From Spirogloea muscicola (lineage: Eukaryota; Streptophyta; Zygnematophyceae; Spirogloeales; Spirogloeaceae), in NCBI GenBank assembly GCA_009602725.1, contig WELB01000020.1:202756-245890 (forward strand): DNA of 43,135 nucleotides, in the 5' to 3' direction. How positions within the stretch are numbered: position 1 is the stretch's first letter; each line of letters begins with the position of its first letter. The notes under the pieces were generated by a model. It was not told the DNA's origin. It worked only from the letters and a program-made list of their open reading frames with translations, and ran no database searches. Positions 13,600 to 43,135 of the stretch are shown here, in pieces. The position numbers were made by a program, and so were the translations under genes.

Positions 13600-16500
13600 T
13601 CGAGCGCCAAGCGGCCCTCCGTTTCGCCGTCCTGCCTCGCCCTGCCCTCCGTGAGACTGACGCCGCTGCCCGCCTTTGCCTGGCTGCGCGGCGCAGGGGC
13701 AGAGGCGGTCCGGGTGCAAGCTGCGGGCCGCCCAGTCCACTCTCGGCTGGGCGCTGCTCATCGTCCTCTGGACCTACCTCGTCCTCAACCTCCAGTCCAC
13801 GTGGACCGTGCCCGACCGCTGGATCGAGGCCACCGTGCAGGTGCGCCCGCTCGACCACCGCCGGGCCCCTGCCGTGCTTCACGCCTCCGCCACTGCGCTC
13901 GGGTCTCATGGCCGCCGACCTTTCCCTATTGAGGGCCCGGCGCGCCGATACCGCCGGTTGCCAAGCTCCGTACTTTCATCTGTACTTTCATCTATACTCG
14001 GGGGGGCTGGCCAGAGCCCACCGTCCTCTTCACGGCCGCGTCCTGCTCTTGCAGCAGCCTGACCGCCGCCCTGCCGTCGCTCCCTTGTCGCCCGCAGAAG
14101 CGAGCTTGGCTGGGCCACCTCGTGAGAGCGGGCAGCGATGGCGAGGACATCCTGCGGTCGGAGGAGAGCCTCCGCCTCCGGTCTGGCCGAGGCCTGGTCT
14201 TCTCCATCCTGCAGAGCCCCTTCTTCTCCACCGTCGGCAGCAGAGACGCGTCCGACCGCGAAGGAGGAGCAGCTGCGGAGCTGATCACGGTGCGGGGAGG
14301 CCTGAGCCGAGGGGCCGCAGAGGACAGGCGCCTGCTGCTGGAGGGGCAGGGCGGCTTGGGGGCGCAAGGGGGCGGCTCTGGCAAGGGCGAAGAGGGGGAG
14401 GCTGGGGCGCAGGACGACAAAGGCCTCGAGGAGCGCAAGGAAGAGGCGGATCCTGAGGCCGAGACGCAGGACGAGAGCAGCGAGGAGGGGGCGGACGACC
14501 AAGGCGACGAGGAGGGCGGAGCAGCAGGCGAGGATGCCTCGCAGGCGACTGTCATCCCCGGCTCCAAGCTCCTGCAAGCCGTCAAGGTGGACATTGGGCG
14601 ACGGGTCGGGAACTTTGACGCCATCGAGGCCTCGGTGTACCGAGGAGGCGACCTCCTGGAGGCAGGCAGGCCTGGGAAAGTCTGCAGAAAGCAGGGCGGA
14701 GCATTTGCCAGGTACATTCATGATGGCCTCAACCATGTGTAGGAGGAGCCCCCGCTGTTGCTATCGCTGCAGTGTCTCACTACTGCGCTTGCTAGGGTTG
14801 ATCAGCTGACATGTCTGCTCATTACAGGGTGGTGAGTGGCAAGCGGATCCTGGTGGTTATGCATGAGCTTTCGTTCACCGGGGCTCCCCTCGGTATGTTC
14901 CTGCTCTGCAAGTGGCTGCTGGTGATGAGAATGCTTTGCCAAAGGAAACCCACACAATAGTAACGCGCGCCATGAGCGCTGCTTGCCCAAGGCCGGGAAG
15001 CACGCACCATTCTCCTCCTTGTTGACGGGAATGATTGGCTGGTATCTAGGGAGGAGCAGGGAGCTTGGGCGTGCTCTTGACGCTCGGCTTGTGGCCTCTT
15101 GCCTTGAATCTCAACAGCCGTGGTCGAGCTTGCTGGCGAGATGGTGGGCTGCGGAGCCACAGTGGATGCTGTAGTACTCAACCGCAGGGGAGCTGCCTTG
15201 AAGGAGCTGTCCAGGCGGCACATCGGCCTCATCAAGGACAAGGGCGTGGCCAGCTGGGATGCGGCCATGAACGCTGATGTGGTCATCGTGGGCTCAGCCG
15301 CCTCTGTGGCATGGATCGGTAGGGGCCATTTCGTCTCTCCATGTTCAGCCACAAGACAAGGCACCCACCCCTCCTGCAGCCTGTGGTTGAAGTGGAGGTT
15401 TCTGTCAGCACAAGCTCACCTCTGTGACGATCCTGATGCACATGTCGGACATGGATGACAGCAGCAACAACCTCGCTTGCTTGCTGCTTGACACATGGCA
15501 GGCTGACAGAGAGGGGTGACCTTACGAATGGCTCTCATCCATCTGCTCGCGTGCAGGCCCCTTTCTCCTCGTCCACGGCGACTGTGCGCACAAGCTTGTC
15601 TGGTGGCTCATGGAGAACAGGCAGGAGTACTACGAGATGGCAAAGCCGCAGCTCCACAAGGTTGGCGCTCTGGTCTTCATCTCCAAGCTCCAGTCACGCC
15701 TGTGGCACTCTTGGGCCCAGCAGGACCGCGTCAAGCTGCCTGCCCACACGGGGCAGGTTCACCTCTCCATCTCCGAGGACCTTGCTCGTATGACCGGCAT
15801 TGCTGAAGGAATGGACAAGCGGCCAGACCTGGTGAAGCTGGCAGAGGAGAAGCGCAAGAAGCTGCGGTCAACGGTCAGGAAAATGCTGGGTCTCAGCAAG
15901 GACGACTGGCTGCTCGTCTGTCTGAGCTCTGTGAACCCCGGGAAAGGGCAGCTCCAGCTTATCAGGGCTGTCAGGATGACGCTGGACATGATTGTCTGGG
16001 AGGGCCGAATGATGGAGGAGGAGTCGGAGGAGGGTGCACACAGTGCTGCTACTTCTTCCGAGGATTCTGGCACAGCGGATGCAGAGGCGGATGCGGTACC
16101 AACAGGTACTGAGCAGGCTGAGAGTGAGGAAGGGGCGACAGAAGTAGCAGCTCTTCGGCGACGACGGCTTCTCGAGGAGCAGACGGAGGAGCAGATGGAG
16201 GAGCAGGCGGAGGAGCAGATGGAGGAGCCTGTGGAAGAGGAGCAGGCTGACGCAGGAGCAAAGGAGCTTCGGGAGACTGTTGCAGGGACTGAGGAGGATG
16301 CTGCAGGTGGGCAGGACGACGCTCACGATGAGAGCATGTCCATCAGGCCCGAGCGTGGCCTCAAGGAGGTGAAGCAGGAGTCAGGGGGCGAGATGACAGG
16401 TGTGCCGCCTGTGCTCAAAGTGAGGAAGAGGAAGCAGCTGAAGCTTCTAATCGGCTCCATGGGCTGCAAGAGCAACAAGGCTGAGTACCTGGCAAAGCTC

Positions 16501-17479
16501 CAGATGGAGCTCGGAGAGCGACGGAAGGACATGGCTAACATGGTTTTCTGGGCTGACACTACAGCCAAGGTGGCACCTCTGTATGCAGCTGCAGACGCCT
16601 ATGTCATGAACGCGCAGGTAGGATGCCTTCAATTCTGCAAAGCAAAGTTGCTCCTGTGTTATATTTTGTATCTGCTCTTGCAGGCCCTGTGTGATTCTTG
16701 CATGTATTAGCAAGTCCACACTGCACATAGATTTGGCAATACTAGGAGGGACATCTTTGCCTGCACCTCGCGAGCTTGCGCGTGGATGACGCTATATGTG
16801 GCTTCCAAGTCATCGTCTCACTCTCTTATGCGCGCTTCCTGTTTAATCACAGGGCCTGGGGGAGACATTTGGCAGAGTTACTGTCGAAGCAATGGCATTT
16901 GGGCTCCCGGTATGTACATGATTGAGCTCCCTGATTCTGAACTCGTGATTACCTCTATGAAAGCGAAGAGGAGTCAAGTGCAGTACTCATAAGCAGAGCA
17001 GTCAATCTACACAATACCTTGTGACACAACACCATGTTGTGCACCGACAAATGCGTGTCAGCAAGAATCATCATGGAATCATCATGCCAGTGTGACTCAA
17101 GATGCTGAAATGCTCGATGCAGATACTGGGAACAAGTGCAGGCGGCACGCGCGAGATTGTGATCAACAACAGCACTGGCCTCCTCCACCCTGTTGGTAAG
17201 AAAGGGGTGCCTGTGCTGGCCGAGCACATCAAGTATTTCCTTGAGCACTCAAAGAAGGGCGTGGAAATGGGACAGACTGGGAAGCAGAGGGTGCTGGAGC
17301 ACTACAGGGATGGACCCATGTATGAAGCTTTTGGACGCTTGCTGCAGCAGGTCATGGTTAGCACAGAGCATCAACTCGCAGCACAGGTGCTGAAGAAGTC
17401 AGGCAGAAAACCAAAGAGGAGAGGCATGAAGCAGCCAAAGCTCAAGTACTTCCGAAGTGGCCAACCTTACAGGGTATGA
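13561..17479 (+). CDS. GT4-family glycosyltransferase, type II membrane protein
   Basis: Eight exons: 13561-13650, 13697-13840, 14098-14711, 14828-14892, 15118-15318, 15557-16617, 16853-16909 and 17123-17479. All phases fit and the product is 862 residues. A poly-Arg N-terminus (encoded by a CGC run) precedes one signal-anchor helix (about residues 46-62), suggesting Golgi or ER lumenal orientation. The catalytic part starts with KRILVVMHELSFTGAPLA and contains WWLMENRQEYY, SSVNPGKGQ, KLLIGSMGCKSNK and the GT4 E-x7-E motif GETFGRVTVEAMAFG, then AGGTREIV. This matches plant UDP-glycosyltransferase-like proteins such as Arabidopsis At1g19710/At1g75420. Their substrate is unknown to me. An acidic insert (about residues 516-646) splits the Rossmann domains. 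The 46-base first intron is unusually short, so the first join is the least certain. Confidence 0.88.
16174..16233 (+). repeat. 12-base coding tandem repeat (acidic)
   Basis: Five imperfect units of GAGGAGCAGAYG encode repeats of EEQ(M/T/A) inside the glycosyltransferase insert. The frame is preserved throughout. Confidence 0.85.
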
Positions 17480-18100: not shown

Positions 18101-21019
18101 TCATAAGGTATCCAGGTCCCCCATGAACTGGTGAAAGCCACTGGGAGGGGGGGCGCCAGCCGAATTACTCGAAGGGCCTGCAGCAAGGCCCGTCACATGG
18201 CCACGCCAACGAGCCCGAGAGGCGCTGGGGCTTGCATCTACCACTGAAGCCTGAACCAAGCCACCCAAGTAGTTGAGCAAGCCGTGCCCTTCAGCTGGGG
18301 GCTGATTGATGTCCAGCGCCTGAGGCCATGTCTGCGTGAATATTGGTGGTCGTCGTCCCACCCCGCTTTCTTTGCCTGCATCCTGCTGTTCCCGCATGGA
18401 ACTAGGGACCAGAAGTCCCGCTGGGAGGAGGGGCATTGCACAGGGCAGCAGCAGCTCGGCACAGACAGGCCGTGCTGCCCCTTGCGGTGCTGTCGAAGGC
18501 AGCAACCCGAGCCCCAGCGCAAGCGCTGATGCTCCGCCCTCCAACCCGTCCGTGGCTACAGTATGCGGCGTGCCAGGGATGATGCGGGTCCACCTTCCCA
18601 CCTGGTCAGCTGCCTCTCGCCGTCTTTCCGAGTCCAGCTCTGCAGGACTAGCGAGGCCGCCGCCGGACGACGTTGTTGGTGCGCAGTCCCACCGCAAGCT
18701 TGAGGACGTGGCCAGCTGCGCTGGTTGAGCTCTGCTGAAATTGAGCTGCTGCTGCCAGCTCATATCCACGTTGTGACTTCCGTCGCTGCCTTCACGAACA
18801 CACGTCAACCCGGGCGAGCCCAAGTCAGGTCCCAACCTGGGCTTCAAGTCAGGGCCCAACCTGGGCTTCAAAGTCTCGCTGTTGGCTTCTTGATGTCGCA
18901 CTCTGAACCCCGCTGACGCAGCTCCAGACCGCGGCGCGCCATCTGCTCCAGCCGAAGCTCGCTCCTGCAGAGCACAAACTGCCTGCCCCTGGAGGTTGGC
19001 CTGCGCTCTTCCACGCTTGACAGGCAGCGTGGGAGCGCTGCGAGCACTCGCCAGGTTCCCAAACAGCCCGGGCCCAATGCCCAGCCCGAGGCCTTGACCA
19101 CCATGCACCTTCTTCTCCTGCAGCACGCACCACAATGCCTGCCCTTTCAATGACCTGCTTGTGTGCCAGCAGGACTGGCGACCTGGGTTGAGAGCCAGGG
19201 TTGATAGACCTTTGCCTATCACATCCTCCACATCCGACCATCTTTTGCACCTTCCTGACCGGCGGGGTCCAAGCACAAATTCTAAGGCGAAAGTCTTGCA
19301 ATTTGTGATGTGAAGGAGGAGACTGTGCAGTGGCTCAGGTCTGATGCTCTGCAAGCATTACAATGCTGCCACACTCGATATGCTTCTCAAAACATGGCCT
19401 TACCTCAAGCGCTGCAGAGTGGGTGGAGCAGAGGCCAGCCTTGCTGCGAGCAAATTTTGCGCAAGGTGTGGACGTCTCCACGTCCGTTATCCACGAGCAC
19501 CGCCGCCCGCCCCCGTGAGACTGCAGCAAGCACAGCAGCAGAGGTCTTGCATCCATTAGCAAAGTTTGCAAGTGATTGAAGGGATGCCAGTAGATGCCAA
19601 TGATGAGGGAGGGGCGCCGAAGCGGGAAGCAGCAAAGAGTGTGAAGCAACCTTGCAGTAGTCTGTGCTGCCCTGTGCACTCTTGCCGCAGTCCTCAAGGC
19701 AGCAGCGGCGTCCGCCACCGTGACGCACACAGTAGTCGGTCTTGCCGCGTGCGCTCTTGCCACACCTCTCCTCCTTGCAGCGCTTGCCGCCGCCGTGCGC
19801 GATGCAGAAGTTGGTTCCACCATGCACGCTCTTGGTGCACAGCTTGCCGCCACTGAACGTGCATCGCTTGCCACCGCCGTGCGCCTTGCACAGGTGCGTG
19901 CGCCCTTCCGCGCCCTTGTCGCAGCCCTCGCGCGTGCACCGCCGCCCACCCCCGTGTGCCTTGCAGTACCTAGTGTTGCCCTGCTTCCCCTCCAACCGCC
20001 GCCGCCGCCGTCGCCGCCACTGCTGAGCAACCTCGTCGTGCTTTGGTCGTGCAAGCAATGCAGGAGCATACGCAGCGCTAGTCCTTGGCACTGCCTGGTC
20101 CACAGGGCCACTGCAGGTGCCATGGCGCTAACCTCACCTGAGCACCCTTGGGGCAGAGCGGGAACTGGCACCGCCGGCCGCCGCCGTGAGAGATGCAGAG
20201 CCCCGTCTGGCCCTCGGCGCTCCTGCCAAGCCCGGCACATGGCATTACGGCCCGCCCCTCATGGCTGCTATCAGAACCCCGCACGTGTGGACCGAGGCGA
20301 TGGAGCAACGAGGCTCCGGCGAGGCCACAGCGCCATTGCCGCATGGCCGTCCGGGAGAGCCAGAGTGTCGAGCTGGGCTGGCGCATACCGCTTGCAGGCG
20401 TCAGCGGTGCAGCGCTTGCCGCCGCCGTGCTTGATGCAGCGCCCGGTGGAGCCGCGCGCGGCCTTGATGCACCCGTCGGCGTGGCACCGTCGCCCGCCGC
20501 CGTGCGCGATGCAGTGCTGTGTGCGCCCCTCGGCGCTGCGCGAGCACCCCTCCTTCTCGCACCTGCCGCAGCAGGCCGCCCACACTTCCAAGCTCAGTGC
20601 GGATGCGAGACGCTCCAGGAATGGAGTTGTGTTCTGAGTTATGGAGGGCCTGAGTGGCCAAGCACAGAGGCAAGCACAGTGGCAGACGTACATCACCCGC
20701 TGCTCAGCTGACCCAGCTCGGTAAGCACGAAGCAGCACATGGACGTCGCTAAGTGATGCCCGAATGCCGGATGGCAATCGGCGAGCGCTTGTGAACCACA
20801 GGCTGAGGCTCGAGGCAGCGAGGCGGAGGGCTTGTGGACAGTCGCAAGAGCCAGTGCGGCGGCGCGGCTGGCTCACCGGCGGCCGCCGCCGTGGCCCTTG
20901 CAGAAGTTGGTGCGGCCCTCGGCGCCCTTGGCGCAGCCATCGGCGCGGCAGCGGCGGCCGCCGCCGTGGGCGATGCAGAGGCCGGCGCTGCCGCGCGCGC
21001 CCTTGCCGCACTCCTCTTC
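18101..21019 (-). CDS. WRKY19-like HGGG zinc-finger repeat protein (5' end lost in gap)
   Basis: Minus-strand exons: from the N gap 21019-20877, 20562-20389, 20222-20138, 19980-19651, 19520-19404 and 19117-18101. All phases match and about 621 residues are visible. It carries ten units of the pattern C-x(2)-HGGG(R/K)RC-x(4-6)-C-x-K-(S/G)A-x-G-x-T, each unit crossing exon borders cleanly. The array ends with CAKFARSKAGLCSTH, the degenerate closing unit seen in plant homologues, followed by KVHGG and a long low-complexity, Ser/Pro/Leu-rich C-terminal region with a short LKPRLGPD duplication. Such repeats occur in Arabidopsis WRKY19 and related loricrin-like proteins. Conserved Cys/His suggest zinc binding, and a nuclear or regulatory role is inferred. 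No WRKY domain is visible, though the N-terminus is missing. Confidence 0.85.
18821..18868 (-). repeat. 24-base coding duplication (LKPRLGPD x2)
   Basis: Two nearly identical 24-base units, 18821-18844 and 18845-18868, encode LKPRLGPD twice in the C-terminal region of the zinc-finger protein. Confidence 0.85.
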
Positions 21020-21454
21020 NNNNNNNNNNNNNNNNNNNNNNNNNNNNNNNNNNNNNNNNNNNNNNNNNNNNNNNNNNNNNNNNNNNNNNNNNNNNNNNNN
21101 NNNNNNNNNNNNNNNNNNNNNNNNNNNNNNNNNNNNNNNNNNNNNNNNNNNNNNNNNNNNNNNNNNNNNNNNNNNNNNNNNNNNNNNNNNNNNNNNNNNN
21201 NNNNNNNNNNNNNNNNNNNNNNNNNNNNNNNNNNNNNNNNNNNNNNNNNNNNNNNNNNNNNNNNNNNNNNNNNNNNNNNNNNNNNNNNNNNNNNNNNNNN
21301 NNNNNNNNNNNNNNNNNNNNNNNNNNNNNNNNNNNNNNNNNNNNNNNNNNNNNNNNNNNNNNNNNNNNNNNNNNNNNNNNNNNNNNNNNNNNNNNNNNNN
21401 NNNNNNNNNNNNNNNNNNNNNNNNNNNNNNNNNNNNNNNNNNNNNNNNNNNNNN
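21020..21454. other. Assembly gap of 435 N
   Basis: A run of N interrupts the HGGG zinc-finger gene in the middle of a repeat-coding exon. The adjoining repeats and GC-rich DNA probably caused the gap. The start codon and an unknown number of HGGG units are hidden or lie just beyond it (21455-21720 is GC-rich with no clear exon). Confidence 0.98.
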
Positions 21455-21714
21455 CGGCGGTGGCGCGCGGGCCGGCCTCATGCCGCGGCGGCGGCGGCGG
21501 CCGGGGGGTGGCCAGGGTGGGGGGGCGCCGCCTGCAGCCGGCAGGCACACGTGGGTTGGGGGGGGGAATTGAGTGCCCCCGTCGGGCCGCCCACCAAACT
21601 GCGGCGCAGTGGCGCTGCGACGGCGACGCCGCCGCCGCCACGCCTGGCGCCCTGGAGTCAGCTCCTTCGGCTGCCAACTCGGGCCACCAAGCTCCCAAAG
21701 CCTTCCCTGTAGGA

Positions 21715-22215
21715 TAGCCGCTTCGTAACCTCCACTTAGGAGCCGCAAGTCAGAATGACTAGCCGCCGGAAGGCAAGCCCCTTGACAAACGCCAGAGGCT
21801 GCAGCTAGAGCACGGCCAGCACGACCGATGCAAGGCGTGCGCCATGGATTGCTAGAGGGAGGTAGACAGGCGCATGCGAAATACCTGCGCTAGCGAGCCA
21901 GCGGCGTTGAAGTCAGCCTGCTCGCCCCGCCTGCGGGACACAGCACGTTGCGCAAGCTGGGCCAAGAGGTCTAGCCACCAAGACCCAAACTCCCAGTGCA
22001 CATCGACGGCCAGTGGGACGAACACGTCACCTTCCAGGTGGTCCGCGTACTTAGCCTCTTTGCCACGAGCAGCATTCGCTGCTGCTGTGAGAGGCGAGCC
22101 TGAAAACAGTGGACAGAGTCCGAAGAGGCCAGAAAGCGCTGGAGTACACAGCTATGAAGTATCACGAAGAATGTCACTTGAGAAACCCCTATTAAGCAGC
22201 CGCAAGTTGGAAAAG
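21715..22215 (-). mobile_element. LINE-like element, C-terminal coding fragment and 3' end
   Basis: On the minus strand (from about 22080 to 21775) a frame reads KYADHLEGDVFVPLAVDVHWEFGS.., then AGSLAQVFRMRLSTSL, then a stop. Downstream at 21715-21770 is the terminal signature (GACTTGCGGCTCCTAAGTGGAGG). The order C-terminal ORF then signature shows that the dispersed signature is the element's 3' end. A second signature lies at 22165-22215. I infer the C-terminal region of the retrotransposon polyprotein, perhaps nuclease-like; the catalytic residues are not proven. Confidence 0.65.
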
Positions 22216-36304: not shown

Positions 36305-39300
36305 CTAGTATCTTGTGCCCAGTTCTCGTCCTTGATTTGCCCCAAACCTTACACCAGCAGTAGGGGTGACGATTGTTAGAGTTAACATAGTCAAGCATAA
36401 AGTGATGCTTACTTGCTCGCATCTATCCATAAGAGCTTGTATACAATCAGCTTGAGGCGCCCAGTTGCCCACTTCCGGATACCCCAGTCCGTGTATAGCT
36501 GTTGCCTGCCAGCTTGTGACAATTTCCCTGCAATGGTGCTGAAGAGTTTGTCCCGCTGCTCCCTCACCCCCCTTGCTGCAGCGCTCAAAATTTCAGGTTC
36601 TAGCTCAAGGGCCTGCATGCGGCTGATCTCTGCCTGTAGACCGGAGCGGGCCCTCGATGCTTGGGGTCCCTGCCAGCAGAGGATGACACCAATCAGTGTG
36701 AATGCAACAACAATACCACATGAATCTCAGGTATCGGCAATGTGAGAAGGTTGATATGTTGACCTACACAGGAGCAGAGAACCTGAGATGCTTGTGATGC
36801 TGGGAGCTTACTGCTTCGCTTAGAGGCTCAAAATCAAGCTGATCATATATGGCCGTCCTCAGGCGCAGATCTACGTGATTCCTCTCCCATGAGTCAGAGA
36901 GCTGTATCAGAAGTGGAGATATGCTGCTGTTTCTGCTGTCTTCGATGCTACCATCCCGCCTCCCCCTCTCTTTCAGGCTGGCACTTCTCTTCCAGTGACT
37001 GCTGCTCAGTGGGCTGCCACCTGACAGGGGGCTGCTTGCATCTGCTTCCCTTGGCAAGCTACCGGCAGAAATGGGAGATTTTGCTGCCTGGTTGTCTTGC
37101 GCTGCAGCCTCGTCAAACGAAAGCGTCTTTGGCGTCACTGGAGAGGAGGTGAGGCTCCAGGGCTGGGAGGAAACTGCAGTGTGGAGCGTCCGAGGGCTGA
37201 ACGACTTTGACCTGAAGATGCTCAAGAAGGGCTTCTTGGCCGCAGAGGGCGAGGACACTGCCTTGCCTCCAGGCACTGGCAGGGATGGGGAAGGGGGTAG
37301 CGAATCAACTGGCCCTGCCAAAGGAGGCTGCTCTAACACAACAGAACCCCCTCCTCTCCCAGGGCTCATCTGTGCTTTGACAGGCGGGTGGATGCGACCT
37401 TCTGACATTGCTGGAACCTGGACATCCACTAGTCGGGCACCTGCTCCTGTATCCCGAGCAGCAGGTGTTGATCTTCCGGAGGTGCTGGGTGTCGTTCCAC
37501 CAACACCATCAGCAGCTAGCCATCCAACGTTTGTCGATGGGGAAGCAGGAACCCACCTGGCCACCGATACTCCCTCCTCCCAGAATCCAATATCTGCGTC
37601 TTCCACCTCCTCTCCTGTTGCACTCGAGGCCTTGCTTGCAGGAATCGTTTCCATGCTAGCAGCCACCTGACCCTCCTTAATCCTCGAGAGGGAAAGGCCA
37701 CCAAAGAGCTCCACAGAGCCCCCGCTCAGAACAGCCTCCTCCTGGGACACCCTCCCGGGTGAATGCTCCACCTCGATAGGCCCTCCCTCGACCTGTGAGC
37801 TCTCCCTTGTACTAGGAGAAGCTACAAGTACACGATCTGCCTCATAGTCTGCTCTGAGAGGAGACCCAATGAGAACATCCTCGTCCCCAAAATTACCATC
37901 TCCACTTGGTGCCGCTTGCAGCTCGTCAAGTGGGCTACTGCTGGCTGCCTTGAGAATGTCATCGCCCTCCAGACTCCGCCGGAGCAGCTCCCTGACCTCC
38001 TGTGAATCGAGCCTGTTTTTGACCAACTGCGGAACGTCTGCCCTGGCCAGGAGCTTCTTGCCCGCCTCTTCATTCCCCTTGGCCCACTCCAAGAACTCCT
38101 TCATTGGCTCTGACAAGAAAGGCCACCCCGGGATTCTCCTCACTAGCTCAGACATTGACAAGGTCGTCTCATCAAGCTCCTCAGCCTGCAAGCTCTCCTG
38201 CGGTGCAGCAAGAGGTTCTCCATCTAGCTCAAGAGATCCTCCTGCCAACTTGCCATTGGCAGACCCTGCAGGCTGCTCTTGATGCGCACCAGAGCTCTGC
38301 AAAACTTGGACAGAGGGCACATCTTAGCTAGTGTAACACAGCCATCAGCAATAAATCATTGTCTAGATTGCCGACACTGTCTCGCCAAGTAAGCTACCTA
38401 CTACTTCAGATGCACAACAACGTGAAAAGAGAAGGAGAGACAACATCAACAGCAGGCACTTTCACCATCACAATGGGCGGGCAGGCATCATGATATCAAG
38501 CACCATGAGACTGCCATGAGACTTCTATTTGCAGCTCACTTTGCTCCTGCCTGATGCTGCATCGATGACCCACAATGGCTGCATCTTCTCTGTAAGACCT
38601 TGTCTCATCCCTCTCCACTGTCTTTGGATGGTTGCTGCAGCTGCTTCTTCCCTCTCCACTCTTTGCATGGCCATCAGCCTGCTCGCTTTTCTGCGAGCAA
38701 GCAGACCTCTCCAGGCAGCCTGAATGCACGATGCAGATTGTTGCTGATGCCGTCTCGCATTGGCTGCTCTCCAGGCCCTCTGAACGACAAGGGCAGCCCT
38801 GTGCCTCTGCAGACACCTTCGGTACACCAATCCTCTCCTGATCCTCTGCACAGCCACTGCTGCAGTCTGCAACCGCATCCTCTCACGGTGTGCCCTCCAA
38901 GCCCGCTGCACTGATGTAGCTGCCCTCCTCTTCTGTGTATACTGGCTCCGAGTGCAGCTTCCCTTCCATCTTGCTTGAATGACTGACGCCGCAAGATGAG
39001 CTTCCCTCAGCTCCGATCTAGTAGCATCTCCTACTCTGTTGCTCATCCACCGACCTTGGATGGTCAGGACTGCCTGATTTCGCCTCTCCAGCTGCCTAGC
39101 GAAGCTTGCCCTCTGCATGCACCCCTTCCAGTGCGACTGTATGACAGTAGCAGCAATGTGTCGAGCGACGCGTGATCTCCATAGCTGTTGCAGAGTGACA
39201 ATGTGCGACCTTGTCGCTAAGTACTGCCTGCGGACTTGCTCGCAACGCCACCTAGACTGGATCTTAACAGCAACTTCTTCTTTCCTCCTCCTGTATGCTT

Positions 39301-39799
39301 GCCAGCTTCTGAGTATAAGCCTAGCAGCAGCCTTCTCCCTGAGAGTCACCTTCTCCATCTCTTCAGCTTGCATACGAGCTTGCAATCGAGCTGCAGCAGC
39401 CCGCCTTGCAGCTTGAGAACCCCTCCACTGCTGCTGTATCACCCTGGCAGCCTGACGCTGAGACAGGAATTTCTGCCTAGCCAAGCTCGCCCTTCTCCGC
39501 TGCTGGAGCGACACAGCAGCAAGCTTGATGTGCTGGAACGTTGTCCTTGCCTTGTGCATCCTCCATGTAGATTGGATTAAGCTTGCGGCCAACTCCCTCC
39601 TCACTTTCTCTGGGAATCGCCAATACGTCGCCCAGTATCTGTAGTTCGCCAGAGCACTTGGAGACAGCTGTTCCAGAAGTGTCGCATTGTCCTCGTCAGA
39701 ACCAGATTGAGAAGGTAGGGAAGACCCGGGTGAAGTCAAGAAGAGCCCTCTTGGCGGTCGTGGCGGAAGAGCCAGTGTGTCCACCCCAGCGGACTGCAT
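36305..39799 (-). CDS. Multi-IQ-motif protein with kinesin-7 C-terminal-like segment
   Basis: Minus-strand exons 39799-38540, 38296-36770, 36669-36413 and 36347-36305. Phases fit and the product is 1028 residues. Residues about 65-400 hold roughly a dozen IQ-like units (pattern A-x-x-IQ-x-x-WR-x-x-x-x-R), predicted to bind calmodulin or myosin-light-chain-like proteins along a long helix. The middle (420-900) is disordered and Ser/Pro-rich. The end contains IQLSDSWERNHVDLRLRTAIYDQ and, around residues 955-1012, REQRDKLFSTIAGKLS..LYTDWGI..LKLIVYKLLWID. The latter resembles the C-terminal NACK region of plant kinesin-7 (RERE..KRLS..ERxxLYxxWGI..RRLQL..LWTD). No motor domain is present. The last two joins use weaker splice sites, and the frame continues open upstream of the ATG to about 39890. 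Confidence 0.7.
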
Positions 39800-40094
39800 G
39801 CCTTGTGGTCGTGGAGAAGCTGATCTTATGCGCGATGGTCTGAAGCATGGCGACGAGGCATACAGACAGACAACAGGGATTACTAGCTGCAGGCAAATCA
39901 GACCATCATGCAGTGAGACCGTGAGGACATTCTGAGTAGATTCTGCAAATCGGTAAAGTCTTGCCTACTGAAAAACTAACAGGCAATAAGAATCTACTGA
40001 CAAGGACAAAGGCACTGCAAGCTACTACATGTGCCAATCTACTTTTCATTTAGCAAGCAGCGATGATCGACAGCAAGCAAGACATCTTTCATTT

Positions 40095-42929
40095 TCAGGC
40101 CGCATCTTTAGCCAACCTCCTCGCAAGACTCGAGCTGCGGCCCATGCTGATGCTGCGACTCCTCCCTGCGTTGCCTCTTCCATCTTCCAAGAACCTGGCT
40201 CTGCCAGAGCGGGCTACTTCGTCTTTGTTGAATGCTTGCCCGAACTCTGAAGCTGCAGATGAGTTGGAGGCTGGAATCAAGGGGTTGTCCTTGATGTTTT
40301 CCCCACCCTCCAACAATGATCTACGCCCTTGCGTGTCCTCAACACTGCCAAACAGCGACTCATCAATCTGTCACAAGCAGTTACTGGGAGCATAGAGCAA
40401 ACTTGCTCTATGCCATATGGCCGCGGCAACAGGCAGATGAAAACAAGGCCACCAGCAATATCAAATGACTCACTTAGATGGAGCAGAGGCAACTCTGGTG
40501 AGGGCCCTCCTGCCCCGTGGTGGTGATATGCTTTGATGGCTCGAACTTCGACTATCTGGCACGTCCTCCTCGCTCTCGTCTGGATGAAGCCACTGCAGGC
40601 CACTGGAGTTTGTCTTGACAACTGCAGGCTCGCACTTGCAAGGTCAGAAATCTGAAGCAAGCGAGCAACACGGACTTGCAGTTCAGATGCTGTCCCGAGT
40701 CCTACGACCAACACTAGAGCAGTTGTTCTTAAGCTTGCAAGCTCCCTTGCTAGCCCGGCTGTTTTCAAAGCTCGCAAAGCACAAGCAAGTCTTTGCCCAA
40801 TATCGGTCCTCTGTATACTAGATCTGCACAAGCTGATATATTGCATTGCCCGTACTTGTCCCTCCTCCGACAGCTTTCTGCAGAAGCTGTAAGACAGCAG
40901 TCGCGTGATCCTGAAATGTGGATGGGAGAGCTCGAAACGTAATCACCTTTCGCCAAGCGAGCACCAACTGCATGTCTGGCAAACTCAGGGGGCCTCCGAG
41001 GTGCTACTTTGGTTGCGTGCTCCGGTATATGCTCGTGCTGCTTCAGGTGCCTCATCACCTTAGACCAATAATACACAGTGTTGGGTCTGATAGGACCTTG
41101 GGGCCCACCTGCACCAATGGAGCAATGACTAATAGGCAATAAATGACTGACATCTAATGATTACAATGCAGTAAATCTGCAAGCCACTTGTGATGCTCAC
41201 TAAGCTTAGCACTCAAGCATCTGTATCATCTCCAGACTCAATCGACTGTGAGTCTCAAAGCTCATTGTCATCTCTAAACATGTTTGTATTAACTTTCTCA
41301 ACAACGGCAATGCTTCGAAAGCAAGCTGGAGCCTGGACTTCCTTGTGATCAGTACCATTATGTGTCTTGGCCAACGTCTCCCAATCATGAGTCGCCACAG
41401 CCTCTGGACAGTACTTGAGCCAATAATGGACAACAGTCGTCTCAGCATGCTCCAGGTCCCTGCGAAGTCAGACTCAACAAGGAAACAAGTCCTCAGCTTG
41501 AGGCCAAGTGGCACCCTGGATCTGTAGTACTCTGCCGACGGCAACAGATCCTTACAGAAAATTTGCAGTACTCTGCCAACAGCATCAGATATTAATTGAA
41601 ACAACTAAACTACTGAGCTAGAGGCTTGCAGATACAAGACAAACCAATCAAAGACACCGAGAGCAACCAACCTGCACTTTGTCCAAACGTGGCTCTTGTT
41701 GCGCCATGCATCTCTGTGATACTCCTCTGAAATTTGGTAGGGGCCAATGCTAGCGCCTGCGTCTCCATCTGGCACCAGAACCCTACAGGCATTGGAACAC
41801 ACATAGCACATCAAGCGCTGTCACAAGTGTGGTGAGTTACTTGTAGACAAGCTGACTCTTTCGCTTATCTTGCCAGGCTTACAGTCCTCTATGTCATTCT
41901 CTAGATGAAGAGTTGCCAACCACTCCCACATACCTTCCTCGCACTCCTTGACCAGTTTGTGGTAGGCATCAGAGCCAAGTTTTCTTAAGGAAACAAGTGA
42001 TGAATACCTGTTGCTGGACTCAACAAAGCGAAGAGCGTTCAGCAGCGGTCGGAGCTCCTTTCTGGCACAGTTCATGGCCTTCCTGTGTTTCCCGTCCATC
42101 TCAGCATCTCTGCGCAGGTACTTATTAGAACCCCAGCCGTTCCCACTGGGTCCCCTCATTGGCCTGGGCGGAGGAATGTGTAGATCATACGGCGAATGCT
42201 GCGCACGTCCTGCAGCAAGGGCCACAGACTGCTGTGCTCAGCGCCATGACTTGACCTGCTTTTTCCCACTTCTTGACAGCCTAGCTGAGCAAGTGCAACC
42301 TGCTGTTGAACCGTCCTGGACCTGACAGATGGAGTACGCCAGTGCGTCTGACTTGCACCTAATCTATGGCAGGAACCCACAAGTAGCCAATCTTTACGAG
42401 TACATGCAAAATCTCAGGAAGGGCAGAATTCTGGCTTGCGAAGCTGGCAGGCTCAGCTTTGAGCCAGCAAGAGCTAGCTGGCTGCCAAAGGTGGCCGTTT
42501 CACCCAGACAGCCTTGACTGTCCTGACCAAAGTGAGCTGACACACTGATGATGGCCTGACCCCTACGAGCTCCTCCCGTGAAAGACCGAGCCCTCGTCAG
42601 ATGGCCATCAGCAGGCCGGATGGCCGACTGGTCAGCGAGCTGGACGGACCGGGTATCAGGGGTAGGCCTGGAAAGGCTAGCGCGCCTAGCTCCGAAAGCC
42701 TATCCAGGTGACAGTACAAGCTCTAGCCACCACGCTCGGACTCCAGCGTGCAGTTCGGCCCTGGTAGCTCTGCTGGCAGAGCCCCGGCGCTCCCGTCCTG
42801 CCGGAGCACTGGACCGGCTGCGTGGCCCCTCTGCCAAGCTAATAACTTACCCTGGCTACTGGTGTTGCCTCGGGCGGGCGACGGGCCGCTCGTGTCCTGC
42901 TCCATGGCGCCGGAGATGCGGGCGAGCAT
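40095..42929 (-). CDS. Invertebrate-type-lysozyme/destabilase-like protein
   Basis: Well supported exons: 42929-42851, 42209-42008, 41782-41672, 41459-41356, from 41108 to about 40950, 40592-40474 and 40344-40095. Middle exons between 40950 and 40593 are unresolved. The domain reads LRPLLNALRFVESSNR, then DGDAGASIGPYQISEEYHRDAW, then HYWLKYCPEAVATHDWETLAKTHNG, then GPQGPIRPNTVYYWSKVMRHL. This follows the i-type lysozyme (destabilase) plan: catalytic Glu in V/LESS, S-x-GPYQI, and the HNGGPxG..T..YWxKV signature, the last formed only by splicing 41356 to 41108. The animal form's many cysteines are missing. It would cleave peptidoglycan or chitin-like chains if active. No signal peptide is seen. 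The C-terminus is Ser/Arg-rich and disordered (HQSISPPRGRR, RSRSISMGRSSS). Confidence 0.68.

Positions 42930-43010: not shown

Positions 43011-43135
<125 letters not shown>

Follow-up and report, generated by a model that had tools for sequence, protein, structure and literature searches.

A lysozyme-like domain related to bacterial and phage destabilases, most likely joined to an IQ-motif array, in a nuclear gene of the streptophyte alga Spirogloea muscicola

Why would the nuclear genome of a green alga encode a domain resembling i-type (destabilase) lysozymes, and where would such an enzyme act? Lysozymes are usually regarded as secreted proteins or as phage lysis enzymes, and a fusion to IQ repeats is unexpected for an enzyme that cuts cell walls. 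We address this question for a gene (gene A) on the minus strand of a 43,135-nucleotide stretch of Spirogloea muscicola DNA (hereafter the window; positions 202756-245890 of contig WELB01000020.1, here C20) in an assembly of 153 Mb and 471 contigs. A first-pass annotation of the window had proposed an i-type lysozyme-like domain spread over short exons and followed by a Ser/Arg-rich tail. Based on gene structure, homology and selection, we propose that gene A encodes an intracellular, calmodulin-linked protein of approximately 1359 amino acids with a predicted working muramidase domain, a reading on which our judgement is evenly balanced.

Gene structure and copies in the genome

Exons 2-5 of gene A have GT-AG borders and fitting phases, and their splicing yields FVESSN...PDGDAGASIGPYQIS...THNGGPQG...TVYYWSKV, which bears out the ordered set of landmarks initially proposed, with all of the listed motifs present. 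The HNG/GPQG junction (slashes denote exon borders) is formed only once the 247-nt intron 41355-41109 is removed, a dependence that had been claimed and that we confirmed in the sequence. Seven GT-AG, phase-compatible exons between 42929 and 40095 translate to 351 residues. The extended model comprises 10 exons (42929-36409), nine GT-AG introns and 1359 amino acids, ordered as a lysozyme domain (approximately residues 70-195), a Ser/Arg-rich linker, an IQ array and a weakly DUF3490-like C-terminus.

A protein search of the alga's own genome returned 14 matching places on five contigs, namely C20 (gene A), C153, C96, C104 and C176. C153 and C96 carry near copies of gene A, with all seven exons at 90-99% identity, the splice borders of exons 1-5 kept, and introns that are 69-92% identical with many gaps. 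C104 and C176 carry a paralogue pair (B) that is 50% identical to gene A. The gene A model consists of the following features:

42851..42929, minus strand: exon 1; ATG at 42929, loosely conserved N-terminus, donor GG/GTAAGT; present likewise in C153 and C96
42008..42209, minus strand: exon 2; start of the lysozyme domain, carrying the catalytic Glu E90 (FVESSN)
41672..41782, minus strand: exon 3; carrying the catalytic Asp as D101 (PDGDAG), and SIGPYQIS
41356..41459, minus strand: exon 4; THNG at its 3' end
40947..41108, minus strand: exon 5; GPQG and T..YYWSKV, end of the lysozyme domain
40474..40621, minus strand: exon 6; Ser/Arg-rich linker, 148 nt compared with 151 nt in C153 and C96
40117..40344, minus strand: exon 7; Ser/Arg-rich linker, final residues ...SSSLARR at the donor AG/GTTGG, 75 codons free of stops in C153 and C96
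39840..40116, minus strand: intron 7; 277 nt, containing the 40095 stop at which the first-pass model ended, with 1-bp and 9-bp indels between copies
38540..39839, minus strand: exon 8; IQ calmodulin-binding motif array, 433 codons free of gaps and stops in C153 and C96
36812..38296, minus strand: exon 9; long, without a Pfam match, donor GTAAGC and acceptor TTTTGCAG common to all three copies
36409..36669, minus strand: exon 10; weak DUF3490-like segment, stop TAA

A start of exon 7 at 40367 was rejected because it introduces two stops, and 40344 suits the phase. Comparison of the three copies also led us to reject the 40095 stop as the end of the gene, since the corresponding frame of C153 ends in other residues and that of C96 continues for hundreds of codons. 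The copies match closely through GCGAGGAG/GTTGG, are then interrupted by gaps of 1 bp (C153) and 9 bp (C96), and match closely again from CAG/ACCATCG. The exon 7 donor (40117) and the following acceptor (39839) are phase-matched; donor, acceptor and phase are kept in all three copies, and the indels are confined to the intron. Further downstream, exons 7-10 contain no stop and no frameshift in C153 and C96; exon 9 has the only gaps, each of 3 nt, and GT and AG are retained at all six of the newly added splice borders. Judging from these alignments, gene A most likely runs on to 36409, and the Ser/Arg-rich region is most likely a linker to the IQ repeats rather than the C-terminal tail it was taken for.

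Bacterial contamination was rejected on the basis of the nine GT-AG introns, the 1.15-Mb contig and the homologous copies on two other contigs. The annotated placement in a green-lineage nuclear genome agrees with the introns and with the gene content of the assembly. The chlorophyll a/b-binding family gave 68 matches, one exon of which matches LHCII entries (up to 1.7e-125) that we take to come from plants and green algae. The GRAS family, which among green algae is a marker of Zygnematophyceae plus land plants, gave 92 matches, often in threes. No match to rbcL was obtained in the assembly, and the plastid genome probably lies outside it. Many genes are present in two or three copies (A, B, GRAS, GT51 and DUF3490 loci), with DNA identities of approximately 84-90% at A and B. 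This pattern suggests genome multiplication or strongly diverged haplotypes, and a genome triplication is reported for S. muscicola in the available part of one study (PMC7994812).

Lysozyme homology, catalytic residues and selection

A phmmer search of the PDB with the 351-residue protein (E up to 10) matched four distinct sequences, all named 'Lysozyme': 8bbu (6.8e-7), which we take to be leech destabilase, 3ab6 (8.7e-7), presumably from a clam, 4pj2 (8.8e-7) and 2dqa (2.2e-4). Paralogue B matched PDB lysozymes with a best E value of 2.4e-6, and a profile built from the two sequences A and B matched 3ab6 at 1.7e-11 over 104 residues, with Glu and Asp aligned to the clam pair. In this alignment gene A retains the muramidase pair as E90 and D101. 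We equated the clam residues aligned with E90 and D101 with leech Glu34 and Asp46, described in the accessible text of the leech study as the dyad responsible for muramidase activity in i-type lysozymes (PMC10126035). Among 30 aligned bacterial and viral relatives, the Glu does not vary and the Asp is at least 90% conserved. A direct PF05497 profile search of the alga's genome returned no matches, and the search's own controls were likewise unmatched, a result that we think reflects short exons. Judged by homology, the lysozyme-like core of gene A is real and belongs with i-type (destabilase) lysozymes, as first suggested.

Among the long stretches measured, constraint is by far the strongest on the lysozyme domain. 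Across three copy pairs this domain shows 1, 1 and 0 non-synonymous compared with 11, 10 and 13 synonymous changes, and the domain stretch of the B pair shows 0 and 5, respectively. The ratio of non-synonymous to synonymous substitution rates (dN/dS) is 0.30-0.45 for residues 1-65 and 0.20-0.49 for exons 7-10; the 26 codons following the domain gave 0-0.35, with too few changes to judge. Paralogue B has a different exon layout and matches the same lysozyme family. Its domain is open in one frame as far as the Tyr-Trp motif, where an intron presumably lies. The two B copies (L017 on C104, L018 on C176) share a nearly identical block of over 100 nt, located a few hundred nucleotides upstream of their lysozyme domain. 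Inspected by eye, this block holds an Ala-, Ser- and Arg-rich open frame that is transit-peptide-like, and an in-frame conserved donor was not seen.

The gene A domain contains C74, C130 and C148 as its only cysteines and lacks the animal-type disulphide-forming set, consistent with the first-pass annotation. The same applies to the reported lack of a signal peptide, in that the N-terminus has no hydrophobic stretch (best 11-residue mean of 0.27 in the first 70 residues, compared with 2.41 in the viral relative L020).

IQ array and C-terminal region

The 1359-residue model contains six IQ stretches according to PF00612 (E=9.2e-15, 53.4 bits, cut-off 20.3), and the exon 8 reading frame alone scores 74.6 bits with seven stretches. 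IQ motifs are bound by calmodulin-type proteins in the cytosol. The C-terminus resembles PF11995 (DUF3490), which we take to be a C-terminal segment of plant kinesins, at scores below the 25-bit cut-off both for the full length (E=0.005, 17.1 bits) and for the last 221 residues (E=2.2e-4, 21.5 bits). No kinesin motor was found in the gene A model with Pfam at E up to 1. In the alga's own genome the C-terminal part occurs only at the three copies of gene A (6 matches; 12 candidates scored), and strong DUF3490 matches are present at three other loci.

Bacterial and phage relatives and the origin of the domain

Relatives were found only via alignments that included more distant members. Plasmids, phages and viral contigs searched with one protein at a time returned no matches, nor did viral and genome contigs searched with alignment A2 or phages searched with the L051 protein. 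With the wider alignment, 39 of 43 candidate stretches in viral contigs were relatives; a further search of viral contigs yielded at least 568 relatives among 600 candidates, of which the best 80 were kept, and 50 of 98 candidates in genome contigs were relatives. These 50 bacterial sequences comprise 39 Planctomycetota, 5 Verrucomicrobiota/Kiritimatiellota, 2 Pseudomonadota, 1 Clostridia and 3 labelled as bacteria only. Among the matches listed, identity to gene A reaches 47% for viral (L021, L024) and 46% for bacterial sequences (L059, L060, L067); the two clam segments are 32% and 28% identical to it. The large cysteine-poor destabilase branch of bacteria and phages has, by homology, relatives in a green-lineage nuclear genome. 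This cysteine-poor family is also very widespread in uncultured phage contigs (L020-L058, L109-L180).

Among the rows of the 127-row tree described below, all 72 viral proteins have 0-3 domain cysteines and all 50 bacterial ones 0-4; the algal domain has 3, and the two clam segments have 12 and 8. Because the closest relatives found, from bacteria and phages, are themselves cysteine-poor, the few cysteines of gene A do not point to a new role, and the earlier suggestion that missing disulphides hint at a changed substrate is not supported, with at most four cysteines in 122 of 122 rows. Most relatives are short: 68 of the 72 viral and 42 of the 50 bacterial proteins do not exceed 250 residues. 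PF05497 is passed by three of four viral relatives (28.5, 39.3 and 36.2 bits), the fourth scoring below the cut-off (23.1).

A viral relative used as query matched seven annotated phage records, all from Cellulophaga, including gene 55 of Cellulophaga phage Calle_1, annotated 'lysozyme (Destabilise-like protein)'. A PHROG search with the A domain and four viral relatives gave no good match (best E=0.0027). A PHROG scan of ten neighbouring frames (4 of 44 in L020, 6 of 53 in L022) matched a methyltransferase, HNH, Mom-like, regulator and unknown families and no lysis or holin genes. A lysis role for the L020 and L022 copies is therefore unsupported by the neighbours scanned.

Two trees were inferred, and leech, C96 and C176 were included in neither. 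The larger comprised 127 rows (3 algal, 2 clam, 50 bacterial and 72 viral, the last being 39/39 from the first search and 33/72 new from the second). The smaller comprised 75 rows, once near-duplicates, ten long rows and any row containing X or shorter than 95 residues had been removed. The algal rows form one clade (support 98/93 in the 75-row and 95 in the 127-row tree), and when rooted on the two clams, algal A and B sit among bacterial and viral rows with no clear sisters in a poorly resolved tree. Constraining alga and clams together gave a tree 13.8 log units better that was not rejected (p-AU 0.775), with the bootstrap unsettled. The phylogeny initially called for thus supports an algal clade but resolves its source poorly. 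Transfer of the lysozyme domain from Planctomycetota or phages is plausible on these relationships, and since a clade of alga and clams is not rejected, we treat transfer from bacteria as a lead rather than a result.

Predicted function and alternative explanations

Under our proposal, one nuclear gene would give rise to one transcript and a long intracellular protein. Its N-terminal domain, a cysteine-poor relative of the bacterial and phage type of i-type lysozymes with E90 as the acid and D101 as its partner, would cleave the peptidoglycan sugar backbone inside the cell. The IQ array would bind calmodulin or calmodulin-like light chains, tethering the enzyme or coupling it to calcium, and the target may be bacterial cell-wall material that enters the cytoplasm. 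A peptidoglycan-cutting domain is the most likely reading because of the retained residues, the selection on the domain and its bacterial and phage relatives. The cytosolic location is likely since there is no signal-like stretch and an IQ array is present; the intracellular role suggested in the first-pass annotation thus still stands as likely on these grounds, although missing disulphides provide no basis for it. More tentatively, and with doubts that exceed our confidence, the streptophyte line could have acquired a bacterial or phage-type muramidase domain and incorporated it into a cytoskeleton-like protein that binds calmodulin, forming a calcium-regulated cytosolic lysozyme. If true, a relative of land plants would possess a cell-autonomous means of handling peptidoglycan, whether bacterial or of its own plastid. 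A strongly selected lysozyme domain within a long IQ-repeat protein, in an alga whose genome also carries genes for making peptidoglycan, would raise a directly testable question, namely whether an intracellular muramidase serves defence or the plastid wall in this land-plant relative.

Several observations weigh against this proposal. The Pfam check recommended at the outset gave a match to PF05497 (E=1.8e-4 for the 351-residue protein) that at 22.2 bits falls below the 26.2-bit cut-off; the 1359-residue protein scores 19.7 bits (E=0.001), and the C153 copy (24.5 bits) and B (24.4 bits, E=3.6e-5) also remain below it. No match to the IQ part was found within 9.9 kb around each copy of B, and the fusion is not common to all copies. 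Ahead of the domain, 59 of 72 viral and 45 of 50 bacterial rows have a hydrophobic stretch, as for export, and such a stretch is missing from A. Finally, a cytosolic muramidase is odd, as such an enzyme has no obvious routine peptidoglycan substrate.

Of the alternatives, the best-surviving is that the lysozyme fold no longer cuts peptidoglycan and has been retained for binding or as a scaffold, or for an isopeptidase-like activity towards a protein substrate, which we regard as doubtful. The fusion is certainly unusual, and leech destabilase is described in the accessible text as having a second, isopeptidase activity with a Ser and His112 as candidate residues (PMC10126035). Neither the ASIG Ser nor the HNGG His varies across five aligned rows (A, B and two clam segments). 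However, both muramidase acids are retained in A and B despite 50% identity, and the constraint on the domain is very strong.

It is unlikely that the locus comprises two adjacent genes, the first lysozyme-like with its end near 40100 and the second encoding the IQ repeats from an ATG near 39800. Neighbouring genes would multiply together, so the shared copies do not prove a fusion, and the IQ part does have an in-frame ATG shortly past the acceptor. Against this, the stop of the supposed first gene is unconserved in C153 and C96, with the C96 frame continuing, and conservation stops and restarts at a phase-matched GT...AG pair. Moreover, in the 39-nt stretch preceding the first downstream ATG the variable sites fall at codon position 3 in three of three cases.

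Gene A might instead act on the alga's own plastid by trimming its peptidoglycan wall, an improbable role in our estimation. The genome does hold candidate genes for such a wall. GT51 transglycosylase (three loci; C3, C56, C107) and murE (two main loci; C149, C435) are present in several exon-like pieces above cut-off, and mraY (C185, C261) and murA (C10, C106) are each present at two loci in several exon-like pieces whose exon-by-exon scores are below cut-off. PDB searches confirmed one mraY exon (MraY in 5/5 matches) and one murA exon (MurA in 32/33 matches, the remaining one being NikO). Plastid peptidoglycan is plausible in this alga given these matches. Peptidoglycan hydrolases reportedly act in moss plastid division (Utsunomiya, 2021), and peptidoglycan genes are described as required for that process in the available part of another source (PMC9434261). 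Yet the N-terminus of gene A has early acidic residues and no clear transit-peptide make-up, as judged from composition only, and a calmodulin-binding array would be hard to place inside a plastid. A plastid-wall role is more credible for paralogue B than for A.

The PF05497 scores below cut-off notwithstanding, chance resemblance arising from splicing picked by eye is rejected as having a negligible probability, in agreement with the first-pass annotation, since the only PDB matches up to E 10 are four lysozymes, a paralogue that differs in exon layout is homologous and matches the same family, and splice sites are kept in two copies with codons under selection.

Other features of the window

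Beyond gene A, positions 43014-43135 contain an A/T run of approximately 120 nt (poly-A on the minus strand) beside a GC-rich stretch, and C153 ends in a matching run. Near 24.9 kb and in L190 there are shorter A/T runs beside GC-rich stretches. The minus strand at 19400-21900 has frames in which HGGGKRC-like units recur, zinc-finger-like by eye and partly N-masked. An open frame on the plus strand at 15520-16710 appears glycosyltransferase-like by eye and is split by a long acidic insert.

Comparison with known systems

No report of a destabilase domain in green algae was found in the literature searched, a scope outside of which lie most subscription papers and eukaryote protein databases. 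No literature linking destabilase with Chlamydomonas was found, and papers combining destabilase with horizontal gene transfer concerned animals only, judging by their titles. The accessible text of the leech study mentions a PF05497 branch of bacterial and viral metagenomic sequences, which was excluded from that paper's tree (PMC10126035). The branch shares with the alga a cysteine-poor domain and the pattern VES/VET...GD.G.SIGPYQI...ARTHNGGP.G...YW.KV. Its members are mostly short with a hydrophobic stretch, whereas introns, a Ser/Arg linker and IQ repeats characterise the algal gene.

Animal i-type lysozymes are secreted. The clam proteins (3ab6, 4pj2, 2dqa) and leech destabilase (8bbu) share homology, the Glu/Asp pair and the HNGGP motif with A. 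Unlike the A domain with its 3 cysteines, the animal forms are disulphide-rich, with 12 and 8 cysteines in the clam segments and 14 given for leech destabilase in the accessible text (PMC10126035).

With IQ-motif proteins, gene A shares the PF00612 array. With DUF3490 kinesins it shares the weak DUF3490-like end, but this scores below cut-off and the motor was not found. GH25 is a lysozyme family unrelated to the i-type. The available part of the report on a Selaginella GH25 muramidase mentions no IQ fusion, unlike in algal gene A; the Selaginella enzyme is likewise a bacterial-type lysozyme encoded in a green-lineage nuclear genome and provides a precedent for transfer (PMC4241558).

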